A DNA stretch of 64,000 bases, taken from the NCBI GenBank assembly GCA_963402885.1, contig OY727097.1:20832001-20896000 (forward strand), written 5' to 3'. The translations under genes were made by a program, and so were the position numbers. Shown here one piece after another: positions 46,301 to 52,300 of the stretch (position 1 is its first letter; every line of letters starts with the position of its first letter). Below the pieces are notes generated by a model, which saw only the letters and a program-made list of their open reading frames with translations, was not told the DNA's origin and ran no database searches. The stretch is from Antedon bifida (Eukaryota > Echinodermata > Crinoidea > Comatulida > Antedonidae).

Positions 46301-49300
46301 ACCATTTAAAGCATGCTTCTCTGTCCGTAACATATACAGAGTTTTCAGCAAGGCAAGTCCAGATCTATGAACAAAAATCAAATTAATATACATTTAGCAT
46401 GAATTGAATGCTTGTCTACAAACAATTCTAAAATATAAAGCAATACAAAAAATTAAGAAACTTGAAGATTGGTAAAGATGCACCGTCTCTCTTTCACCAG
46501 GCTATGATACAGTCCATATTAACTTTTTGTTGTATTGTGTAGTTGAATAGCTTGTCTAAAAACAATTTCAACTAGAGGGTACTCCGAGAGTACAAACCTC
46601 CGCCTACTGTAAAATTCCCCTACATAAAATTCCCCCTGAATATTTTTTTTTTAAATTGTTTTTATTAGTTCTAAGTGTAAATATGCTAACTGCACACTAC
46701 AAAGTTGTGGATGACAGTGTGGTGTAATGGTTATGTATCCAGCCTCTCACAGTTGAGATCGCTGGTTTAAGTCCCACTGAGGTTTTTTTTTTTTTTAATT
46801 ATTTTTTTATTTCTTTTTTTTTTGTTTTTTGTGGACCTTGATCTTTGACCCTGACCCTGACCCTTCAAAATTTAACCACAATTATATGATGTGTCATTGA
46901 TCATTGTGGCTAAGTTTGGTGAGAATCGGATAAAAACTGTGGTCTCTAGGCAGTAAAATAGTTTTTTGTTAGTTGTGACCTTGACCTATGACCTTTTCCC
47001 CTCAAATTCGAACTCGTCCGAGCTTTTTGGTCATAGATCATTTTTGCCAAATTTGGTGAGAATCGGATAAAAACTGTGGCCTCCAGGCTGTTCACAGACA
47101 CACACACAAACACACACAAACATACAGGGGTGAAAACATAACCTCCTTGGCGGAGGAAATAAATTACAGAGAATAAAAATGGCTAAAAGGTAATCTATTC
47201 AGGATATCTGCGACAAGGCTATAGAGAAAAAACTAAAATATATAATTAATGTCAAATCCCACAATCGTCCAATCAAATGACAGGAATGTATTTAGGTGTT
47301 ATATAAATTGGTCTATTATTATGTTTTATCCTTCATAATTATCATACCTGTTTAGCTTGTGGCGCACATAACCACAATTGACCATCTTTTAGTAGGAAAC
47401 GTAAAAAATGCAGTCTTTCCTGAACTTGTTGTACATGGCTGTAGCGGTCACCAGGAAGTAGACTATGGGGGTCAAGACCAGCATTTTCTAAATTGTAAAA
47501 AACACACATGTAATATAATCGCTAACTAGAATCATGTAATCATCTTTTGTTGCAGTACTATAATTTTTCAAAAACAGTGAAGTTGGAGGTTACCTGACAA
47601 CTGCATCTTACCTTTAGCCATATGTCTAGCTGAGTTCATGTATTGAGAGAGATTTTCAGCAACAATGGTAACTAATGAATGCTTTGTTTGTAGCATACTA
47701 ATTATATCATGTCTGTATTGCATGTGAGGACTTCGCTGGGAGTGACTGTGATTTTGTGGTGCCTGTGAAGAAATAACCAGATAACCACATATCAAAATCA
47801 ATTAATATAAAAACAGTATGTTAACTCTGCAAAATGAATGTCCGAATTGTCAAATGTTATACTCATTTTCTATTTACAGTTTTTCTATACTACAATGCAA
47901 CTAAGAATTTTGTAACAATAATAAACTCATAAAAGTGTGTCAATGGCTTCAAAACCAATATATGTCATGACATATTTCTAATTTCAATGACATTACCTCT
48001 CCAAATAAGCAGCAGATTTCTTTAATTTGCTTAAGAGCTGGTAAAACCCACTTGTCATTCTTTAACTCCTCAACAAAACGGTCAATCCATCGGATCTTCT
48101 GAGCATCTCGATCCTGTCACAAATGATTATATTTTGTATTTGATTTAAGTTTATAGAAAACGGTATTACATTAAATAACAAAAATATCATGAAATATACA
48201 GTGTACAAACATAATTATTTAACAAAGGAAATTACTATTTACATTTTAACGATACAGTAAAACAATTTTGAAGCCAATTGGATAAGAGAAATTTTGAAAT
48301 TTATCTCTACCTGAGAGCAACTATAATCAAGTATTTTAATATGTGCATTGAGCGCTTGATCCATGATGTCTGTTGGTACATCCTCTTGGTGTGCTAGGTT
48401 CCACAGTAAACCCAACACCTTGTGAGCCATCACACCATCTTTATCATCCTCTGCTAAACGTCGAATCAACTCTAGTAGTTTTTCCCGTTGCTTTGTAGTC
48501 GCATTAGCCCAACTTTCCTACAAAAGATATGAAAATATAACTTAAAATCTGTAATGTAAGCTAGTATACAAATATTTACTGGGCTGAGGGGCATGATTAA
48601 AAATATAGCCCAATGTCATCTGGAGACTACTATATCTCGAGAAATCGAGGGATATAGTATGAGAGGGAGGAAACAGACATGCGCAGTTTAGCCGGGCATG
48701 GCAATAACTATAGACCGGCGATTAACCAATGAGTTGCTGTGAATTGAAAGGTGCAGGTATATAATACTACTTATTTTCAAATAGACAATTTTTTGAATAG
48801 ACAATATAAAGCTTCATGCAGTATACTCATATCTTTCAACGGTCTTACCTGGAAACATATAAAGAGATGATCAAGTTGTTCAGGTGAAAAGTCCCAAGCA
48901 AGCTTTGCCAACAAGTCATGTACATTCTTTACTATAGCTTCATGTTTTCCGACCTAGAAAAGTAAGACAAATTTGAAAGCACATCATTAAAGTGCTGCTT
49001 TGAAAAATACATGCTCAAAGATAGGATAGGAACATTCCTATATCTAAAATATAATTCTCACAATCTATGTGTCACCAACACACATAAATTGAAATGTTGA
49101 AAGTCAACTACTTAACTGATTAAGCACTGTTAAGACTTTTTTCACTATTAAGATCTTCAAGTGTTAATGTTTAAAAACACTCACTAACTACAATAAGCGT
49201 GTAACTCACCTGTGCAGCCCATATATTATCAAGATCTTCAAGTGTTAATGTTTCAAAACACTCACTAACTACAATAAGTGTGTAACTCACCTGTGCAGCC

Positions 49301-52300
49301 CATATATTATCAAGATCTTCAAGTGTTAATGTTTCAAAACACTCACTAACTACAATAAGCGTGTAACTCACCTGTGCAGCCCATATATTATCAAGATCTT
49401 CAAGTGTTAATGTTTAAAAACACTCACTAACTACAATAAGCCTGTAACTCACTCTGTGCAGCCCATATATTATCAAGATCTTCAAGTGTTAATGTTTCAA
49501 AACACTCACTAACTACAATAAGCCTGTAACTCACCTGTGCAGCCCATATATTATCAAGATCTTCAAGTGTTAATGTTTCAAAACACTCACTCCCTACAAT
49601 AAGTATGTAACTCACCTGTGCAGCCCATATATTATCAAGAACTTCAAGTGTTAATGTTTAAAAACACTCACTAACTACAATAAGCCTGTAACTCACCTGT
49701 GCAGCCCATATATTATCAAGATCTTCAAGTGTTAATGTTTCAAAACACTCACTAACTACAATAAGCCTGTAACTCACCTGTGCAGCCCATATATTATCAA
49801 GATCTTCAAGTGTTAATGTTTCAAAACACTCACTAACTACAATAAGCCTGTAACTCACCTGTGCAGCCCATATATTATCAAGATCTTCAAGTGTTAATGT
49901 TTCAAAACACTCACTCCCTACAATAAGTATGTAACTCACCTGTGCAGCCCATATATTATCAAGAACTTCAAGTGTTAATGTTTAAAAACACTCACTAACT
50001 ACAATAAGCCTGTAACTCACCTGTGCAGCCCATATATTATCAAGATCTTCAAGTGTTAATGTTTCAAAACACTCACTCCCTACAATAAGCCTGTAACTCA
50101 CCTGTGCAGCCCATATATTATCAAGATCTTCAAGTGTTAATGTTTCAAAACACTCACTAACTACAATAAGCCTGTAACTCACCTGTGCAGCCCATATATT
50201 ATCAAGATCTTCAAGTGTTAATGTTTCAAAACACTCACTCCCTACAATAAGTATGTAACTCACCTGTGCAGCCCATATATTATCAAGAACTTCAAGTGTT
50301 AATGTTTCAAAACACTCACTAACTACAACAAGCGTGTAACTCACCTGTGCAGCCCATACATTATCAAGAACTTCAAGTGTTAATGTTTCAAAACACTCAC
50401 TCCCTACAATAAGCGTGAAACTCACCTGTGCAGCCCATATATTATCAAGATCTTCAAGTGTTAATGTCTTTTCCTTGATGACAAAACGAAGAATTTTTTC
50501 AAGTTTCTCTACATATTGTGGTTGGTGAAGACTATCTCGTAGCACTATTGAAAGAACCTTGTTTTCCTGAATCCATTCCTGGAAAAAACAAATTCTTGCA
50601 CATATACATTATCGTAATTGAAGTCAGACAGAATAGTTCATAAAGGTCTGACAAGGCGTTGGTTTTTAAATATTGAACATGTATATTGAGATGCAATTTA
50701 AATAATCTCCATAGAAATATACAAGTATAGGTGAGGGAAGGCCTCCTTACTTAAAGATGAAGAAGTAAAAAATAACATGTATTATATCAAAATTGACAAG
50801 AGTGAATATTTAGTAGTACTTGGAAGATGTACTTACAGCAACTCGTTCTGCTGTCAACCACTCCTCTTCTTCAACTGTGCTGTGTTTATGTGTGTAATAC
50901 GACACATTTGAAATCACTTTGTTTATCTCATTCAATGCGTTCATCTTACCATTGAAAGACGAAATTTGAAGTAATCTTTAAATACAAATAGAAAATAAAT
51001 GTGTTACATACTTATGAAATATCAACTCACTGTAGTATATCCAAATAAAATTGTAACTAAATAAAGTTCACAGATATCAATACATACAAAGTTCCGTTAA
51101 CATGTTTTGTAATATAACTGGCTGTGGTTTAACTGTATTTTGTTATCCCTTGTTTTTCTGACAAAGTATTGTATTATTACCTCTGAGATACTTGCATGTG
51201 TGTTAGAAGGATAACGCCAAAACTACAAGATGGATCTTTATGACATTCAACCACATGTAGATATGTGGTCACGGAAGACTCCATAAAATTTTGGAGACAA
51301 TCCTGTCCGCTTTTTATAATTTTACTAATTTTAGGCTGTACGTCAGATGTACAAGATGGATTTTTATCACGATTCTTGTCTTGATTGCTCTTGTTATAAT
51401 TGCATTGCAAGGTATCTATGTTCAATATTACTATACTATTTGTAGTAAATATATATATATATACACACAGTTAGTGAAGACGTGTGGAGAAGTGTGTTGG
51501 ACATTGGACAACTCGCTGCATTGCTTGTATCTTCATGCAAGACACTTACGTTTGCCTCCAGGTATATAGGGTCCCCGATTAGGTCAAGACACAACTTTGC
51601 GCTGATTACTAGCTGCATTATGGGGGTATGTTTGATCCAAAACAATGACCCGGGTAATAATATGAAGCGCTTAGAAGCATTGTGTAATAGGCGCTATATA
51701 ACAACGAATATTATTATTATAGCTATCAAAAACAGTAAACAGAGACAAAAAAAACAAACTATGTGAATTCAGGAATTTAATGCTCTTACCTTAGGATCAT
51801 TTTTAAGCGAAACATTTCTAATGTTTTTATTTTCTCCTCTGTATCAGGGACTCTGGCAACAAGATTCTTGAGGGACTATTATATAAATACACACACAAAG
51901 TATCAGTGAATCTGAGTCATGATGAAAACTCCATGCACATGATCACAAATGGTTCTGAACATGATGATTTCATAAACCTATACATATTACATTATGATTT
52001 GATAACAAATCTATAAACAATGGTTATTAATTTTAATGTACATTTTTTTAAATATTCAATATATTGGGATTTGTTTTCCTTAATTTCAATACATTGAACT
52101 GTAGCCACTGACTTAAAAGTTTAAAAATGTCTTATTTTAAGCTTTAACAAGATCAGTAAAAAGTATATACTGTAAAAACATACTTTAATAATAGAAGAGA
52201 GAGCATCATTTTTAGCCTCATTCTTTGATTCCTTTTTCAGTTCTTCATCAGATAGTGAATCAAGGAAATTAATAACACGATCCTGAAAATAAACCAGTTA

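Follow-up and report, generated by a model that had tools for sequence, protein, structure and literature searches.

The minisatellite of splice donors in the human gene IFI6 was reportedly described by Turri, Cuin and Porter in 1995; its units are 12 bp long and near-consensus. In the passages of PMC4526556 that treat IFI6 (6-16, G1P3), this repeat lies across an exon-intron boundary, provides several donors, and has downstream units that are used, giving isoforms; a portion of PMC2915984 cites the same 6-16 minisatellite. By analogy, it is the closest precedent for the element considered here, an 81-bp minisatellite that crosses the boundary between exon 11 and intron 11 of USP9X in the crinoid Antedon bifida. 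The element lies within 64,000 nucleotides of contig OY727097.1 (GenBank assembly GCA_963402885.1, positions 20,832,001 to 20,896,000), and this whole stretch is called the window below. Like the IFI6 repeat, the array crosses the boundary and offers several donors, an intact CAG/GTGAGT being present in 15 of its 16 units. Unlike the IFI6 repeat, its unit is 81 bp long, includes 39-42 exon bases, and carries a perfect donor. Further, use of the downstream donors is reported for IFI6 and would be a prediction for the USP9X array.

Other systems are instructive, of course. Human segmental duplications, in the sections of PMC2812944 that concern them, hold variable tandem repeats at exon-intron boundaries, with 27 intron modifications; these repeats belong to recent primate paralogs and have a mean unit of 30 bp in four copies. 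There, as here, expansion of a boundary minisatellite alters intron structure. There, however, the genes are primate paralogs, while here they are conserved genes of one invertebrate. In fission yeast, an intron spans several copies within arrays of a 24-bp AGGT unit, and the same excerpt treats intron gain by tandem AGGT duplication, the Rogers model, for ATP2A1 (PMC4974935). The USP9X array shares with that model its tandem AG/GT copies. The difference is that exon becomes intron in the Rogers model, whereas in USP9X exon would have been copied into an apparently old, pre-existing intron. Intron gain of the Rogers type at USP9X was therefore rejected; its mark is a new intron, and this boundary looks old. 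What is new relative to these precedents is the longer unit, the perfect donors, and the recurrence across conserved genes within a single genome. Among the titles found in the open-licence literature, we recognised none as a report of several donor arrays in one invertebrate genome.

The reading that we favor, with a probability of about 0.72, is that the array is a recent minisatellite whose first donor normally makes the junction between exons 11 and 12, and whose 14 intact copies of that donor are decoys cut out with intron 11. The features on which this depends are as follows.

17475..60740, minus strand: complete USP9X coding region, 54 exons, 2559 codons (spliced model against the protein P0001)
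50426..50578, minus strand: USP9X exon 11, with residues 385-435 in 51 codons (153 nt; placed by tblastn of P0001 and by the spliced model)
49146..50467, minus strand: 81-bp minisatellite across the exon 11/intron 11 boundary (Tandem Repeats Finder; unit and variant table)
50420..50425, minus strand: first, presumably functional donor CAG/GTGAGT (junction present in P0001)
49204..50344, minus strand: 14 copied donors CAG/GTGAGT; GT starts of copied donors 2-8 at 50344, 50263, 50182, 50101, 50020, 49939 and 49858, of the remaining ones at 49777, 49696, 49615, 49534, 49371, 49290 and 49209
50021..50425, minus strand: units 1-5, open, five 27-residue blocks (translation)
49982..49984, minus strand: first in-frame stop, TAA, in unit 6
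49372..49453, minus strand: unit 13, 82 bp, with an extra base that destroys the in-register donor and shifts the frame
48954..50425, minus strand: intron 11, 1472 nt, phase 0, with 192 nt outside the array (spliced model)
48849..48953, minus strand: exon 12, with acceptor TTTTCTAG (tblastn and spliced model)

The gene that carries the array is an intact crinoid USP9X. Its orthology to USP9X / FAF-X is indicated by full-length collinear homology and by the UBP24/USP9X ARM region (PF25010, E 6e-96); exons 11-12 themselves match human FAF-X (structure 7yxx, E 3.9e-35). P0001, the predicted USP9X-like isoform X2 of Antedon mediterranea, is the closest protein, and the sole named crinoid protein, among the best 120 of 772 matches, and the spliced model agrees with it at 2554 of 2559 residues (5 differences). 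P0001 joins exon 11 straight to exon 12 (AAQ-VGKH), without an insert.

Tandem Repeats Finder places the array at 49146-50467, with period 81, 16.3 copies, 95% match and a score of 2397, in agreement with the roughly 16 copies of an 81-bp unit given by a first-pass annotation of this DNA. Each unit starts with GTGAGT, continues through approximately 39 intron-derived bases, and closes with 39-42 bases of the exon 11 end, so that its content is that of the last 13 codons of exon 11 and the start of intron 11. Exon 11 has a unique body of 111 nt, and its final 39-42 nt are what the repeat took from the exon. The annotation had this composition right in its parts (exon end, GTGAGT, intron start) while counting about 36 intron bases. 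The donors that it listed exist; its numbers are those of the last exonic base, with each GT one base lower. The one broken donor, at 49453, was lost to a single extra base. Variable sites within the array are few. In the exon-derived part there are D-to-V changes in units 1 and 2 and an I-to-V change in unit 1, and two-unit blocks recur identically (3-4, 7-8 and 11-12), with unit 6 the same as unit 10.

Such perfect blocks are the type of repeat that assemblers can miscount, and this would be the ground for holding that the copy number is an artefact of assembly. We consider this very improbable. Ordered variants distinguish the units, the window holds no N, and similar arrays stand at other loci. 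Further, a search of the 27-contig genome gave at least 16 matches to the repeat unit, and the 16 among those listed are all inside the USP9X array.

A second minisatellite stands in the same gene. Intron 3 holds, at 54046-56241 of the window, about 40 copies of a 55-bp unit that fill 2196 of its 2442 bases and cross no exon end. Because intron 3 has this array besides that of intron 11, at least two USP9X introns hold arrays.

How might one donor be chosen from so many? On approximate scores, taken from weight tables of our own and applied to 51 of the 53 USP9X introns, the CAG/GTGAGT of the array reaches 9.2, the top of the 51 scored USP9X donors (median 3.4). All 15 sites that score 9.2 on the minus strand of the window fall inside the array. 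From -45 to +42 around the 14 copied donors, 79-83 of 87 positions are identical to those around the first. Because the local sequence is nearly common to all copies, the choice among them would have to come from position, exon definition or transcription order.

Here, the favored history is that a tandem duplication of a segment that runs from the final codons of exon 11 on into intron 11 gave rise to the array, with the 5'-most donor being the original. In living cells, that first donor would win by position rather than by strength, either through exon definition or because it is the first to be transcribed or the first to be bound by U1. Exon definition would operate over 153 nt, with the unique 111-nt body of exon 11 and the strong acceptor of intron 10 singling out the first donor. 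The open frame seen in USP9X would then be a matter of chance, with leaky inclusion of units at most.

That open frame nonetheless invites another reading. With its 81 nt the unit is 27 codons long, and the frame of exon 11 stays open through units 1-5, the former intron part included, as the annotation had proposed. Use of donors 1-6 would give exons of 153, 234, 315, 396, 477 and 558 nt, each joining exon 12 in phase, and would add 0-5 blocks of 27 residues after residue 435; translation reproduces this part of the annotation as well, along with the limit that it set at a TAA in the next unit (unit 6, at 49984). Each extra block closes with the exon-end sequence once more (LExLDNxWAAQ), which would keep the join to exon 12 close to the native one. 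It could be, then, that donors 2-6 are usefully used, as in IFI6, to add one to five blocks in an inter-helix loop of the ARM region. The equal strength of the array donors, the in-frame period, the open units 1-5 and the near-native junction all speak for such length variants.

The predicted structure at the insert site speaks for them also. An AlphaFold2 model of P0194, a relative's fragment (16 sequences, mean predicted local distance difference test score, or pLDDT, of 81.6), corresponds to 7yxx, the human USP9X structure (Foldseek E 3.3e-15, 68% identity). In this model, the insert would follow residue 234, within the loop that separates the helices at 224-232 and 239-255. The repeat blocks themselves came out as a long beta solenoid in a single-sequence model (mean pLDDT 74.3); this was not trusted, three of the five models being at 41.7-49.3.

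Several observations make useful length variants unlikely. The insert is absent from the proteins searched: neither three words of the repeat nor a doubled exon-end motif, in the form used for the search, occurs in 240 proteins (the best 120 of 772 and the best 120 of 126), and a query with five blocks inserted gave no match at E 0.001 among 6224 candidates, these searches covering cluster representatives only, as we understand the tool. The exon-derived part carries the D-to-V and I-to-V changes noted above. The TAA recurs in units 6, 10, 13 (which is frame-shifted as well) and 16. The identical blocks are best taken as recent higher-order amplification, which copied the TAA as readily as the open units. 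Because the TAA recurs through these copied blocks, the array as a whole is not kept open. Nor is an open unit rare by chance: 37.5% of 4134 windows of 42 nt sampled from USP9X introns are open, as are the first 42 nt in 14 of 31 further phase-0 introns of USP9X. The open, in-frame array is less striking than it appears, given 37.5% open windows times one third for the period.

The units run GTGAGT...CACAG, with AG dinucleotides at +22 and +81, and each might therefore act as a mini-exon, as the annotation suggested, or as an 81-nt mini-intron that starts with GT and ends with AG, in complex or recursive splicing. That a duplicated AGGT segment can create introns, as the part of PMC4974935 already cited describes, would favor splicing of this kind. 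The AG of CTTATTGTAG at +22, however, has acceptor scores of -3.8 to 2.2, mostly below zero, and would define a mini-exon of 59 nt (remainder 2) that breaks the frame; on these two grounds mini-exon use was rejected. The AG at +81 scores mostly -0.4; among 51 real USP9X acceptors the median is 3.6 and the lowest tenth lies at 0.1. Splicing within the array by either route is thus hardly to be expected.

More decisive is the comparison with other genes. The genome (315.6 Mb) was searched for three successive perfect CAGGTRAGT donors separated by 60-88, 30-58 or 88-116 bases; the search covers donor-to-donor spacings of 69-97, 39-67 and 97-125, and CAGGTRAGT triplets only. The three gap classes gave 41, 13 and 15 pattern matches, partly at the same places, which resolve into 17 separate arrays including that of USP9X. 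A reversed control pattern gave 29, 43 and 21 matches against these 41, 13 and 15, so that the search shows no enrichment over chance; what is claimed for donor arrays is recurrence, not enrichment. Homology-covered exons are found in seven of the 17 arrays (USP9X, UBR5, C12orf4, TUBGCP2, DHX8, mitoguardin and a sulfotransferase), a share of exon ends that is biased by the search itself, a perfect donor 9-mer being expected mostly at real donors. TUBGCP2, UBR5 and DHX8 are named from matches in the PDB. C12orf4 is the name used for the DUF2045 gene, and the sulfotransferase is presumably CHST15. An eighth exon-end array lies in a gene with a CEP76 peptidase domain, which we take to be CC2D2A. 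The eight are:

USP9X: 81 bp; exons 11-12 homologous to human FAF-X
UBR5: 96 bp; PDB match E 1e-12; every extra unit open
DUF2045/C12orf4 (L029, G000:C12:27261000-27269000): 69 bp; E 1.4e-9
TUBGCP2: spacings that are multiples of 18 bp; PDB match E 2.4e-18; every listed extra donor leads to a stop
DHX8 (L025, G000:C9:23340000-23346000): 37 bp; PDB match E 9.6e-32 with the next exon joined
mitoguardin: 55 bp; E 1.6e-13; every listed extra donor leads to a stop
sulfotransferase: 79 bp; E 2.6e-8, match over part of the exon; every listed extra donor leads to a stop
CEP76-peptidase-domain gene: 55 bp; E 3.1e-38, match on the two predicted exons upstream; every listed extra donor leads to a stop

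Of the joined peptide of the CEP76-domain gene, the Pfam match takes in residues 1-110 and the array exon is residues 125-143; taken alone, that exon has no PDB or Pfam match, and it rests on the gene model. DHX8, itself a splicing helicase, has about 10.5 copies at a phase-1 exon end, and every listed extra donor there leads to a stop. At the C12orf4 exon end, nine copies match at 99%, and the frame stays open through all eight extra units. This array is a better candidate than that of USP9X for real length variants, to judge from its sequence.

Thus, in five of the eight exon-end arrays all listed extra donors lead to an in-frame stop, and the first donor alone can make protein. The periods (81, 96, 69, 18, 37, 55, 55 and 79) are multiples of three in four of eight cases (P = 0.26 for four or more), or in four of seven without the CEP76-domain gene (P = 0.17). 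Selection for frame is not evident from these periods or from the count of open arrays, three of eight (USP9X to unit 5, UBR5 and C12orf4), for which P (three or more) = 0.11 at a test rate of 0.15 that is a rough guess (one third times the open fraction, rounded up, some intron parts being short). With no sign of selection for frame, the first donor is probably the one used, and the copies are tolerated decoys. Further, the first donor would be used and the rest ignored because freely used copies would not let the frame-breaking arrays of DHX8 and TUBGCP2 persist.

The first-pass annotation had offered two alternatives, an array of decoy donors or a generator of length variants. The five stop-giving arrays favor the decoys, and the openness of the UBR5 and C12orf4 arrays is set against frame-breaking arrays that are at least as common; for USP9X, useful length variants keep a minor chance.

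Four points weigh against the favored reading. The three open arrays of eight exceed what the guessed rate of 0.15 predicts, that of C12orf4 being open throughout, and they become three of seven, with P = 0.07, when the CEP76-domain gene is left out. The extra blocks of USP9X would fall, in the predicted structure, in a turn, a place that might tolerate their inclusion. P0001, which lacks the insert, is a protein predicted from a different assembly, and it represents a cluster of four sequences. Finally, SRSF1 and enhancers placed between competing donors favor the intron-proximal donor, according to the portion of PMC5585400 that deals with them, whereas the favored reading requires the reverse. 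Some leak into donors 2-6 seems likely enough to be worth measuring.

A wider view would be that donor-spanning minisatellites recur throughout this genome, that the open ones give protein length variants tunable by copy number, with arrays whose length varies between individuals, and that the closed ones place a load of leaky nonsense decay on genes such as DHX8. We regard this as a doubtful generalization.

Outside the frame count stand four uncertain arrays. L028 (84 bp) has an exon-like frame with stops in the unit, and no homology match was found for it; L035 (105-113 bp) lies in what by eye is a leucine-rich-repeat type gene; L036 and L037 (116 bp) have exon-like copies with stops. In these last two, on contig C8 at 15.97 and 34.61 Mb, the unit consists of a 27-base GT...AG stretch and an 89-base exon-like stretch, and the flanks are similar. 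The exon-like stretch resembles what we presume to be SPOUT1, and the pair is possibly a dispersed copy of an exon array. In five arrays (L023, L027, L032, L033 and L038) no exon was seen by eye.

The age of the boundary itself can be approached through other genomes. Among short open reading frames (ORFs) from these, the exon-end motif is present in 109 of the best 120 of 126. Because 37 of those 109 continue at the same codon with V and then with unrelated, intron-like residues, the exon 11/intron 11 boundary looks old. One of the short ORFs, P0133 (126 residues, from a jgi/ena contig of 2561 bases, another animal), repeats part of the exon-end sequence after AAQ/GT (LIKEKALSLQNLEKN). The similar P0152 has one exon-end copy as far as its ORF extends. 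P0133 may represent an independent duplication across the same USP9X boundary, or a chimeric contig.

Donor choice among identical competitors is often studied with reporters that carry two donors; the relevant part of PMC1877881, for example, treats reporter studies that measure choice between two competing donors. Here, a natural series is available. Several conserved genes of one genome have runs of 4 to 16 consensus donors that are nearly identical to each other, both in-frame and frame-destroying, which suggests that donor arrays are tolerated in core genes. These arrays may vary between individuals.

Other repeats of the window lie apart from the donor arrays. Two 16-bp arrays (AAGTCGCCCCATCGCA and, by eye, its reverse complement) at 12179-12328 and 14616-14814 stand about 2.3 kb apart in opposite orientation. 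They resemble a mobile element with repeated ends, and in the list of ORFs none longer than 99 residues falls around them (12179-14814). Downstream of USP9X, at 793-4726, 151 copies of a 26-bp unit form an array with a strong strand asymmetry in base composition.

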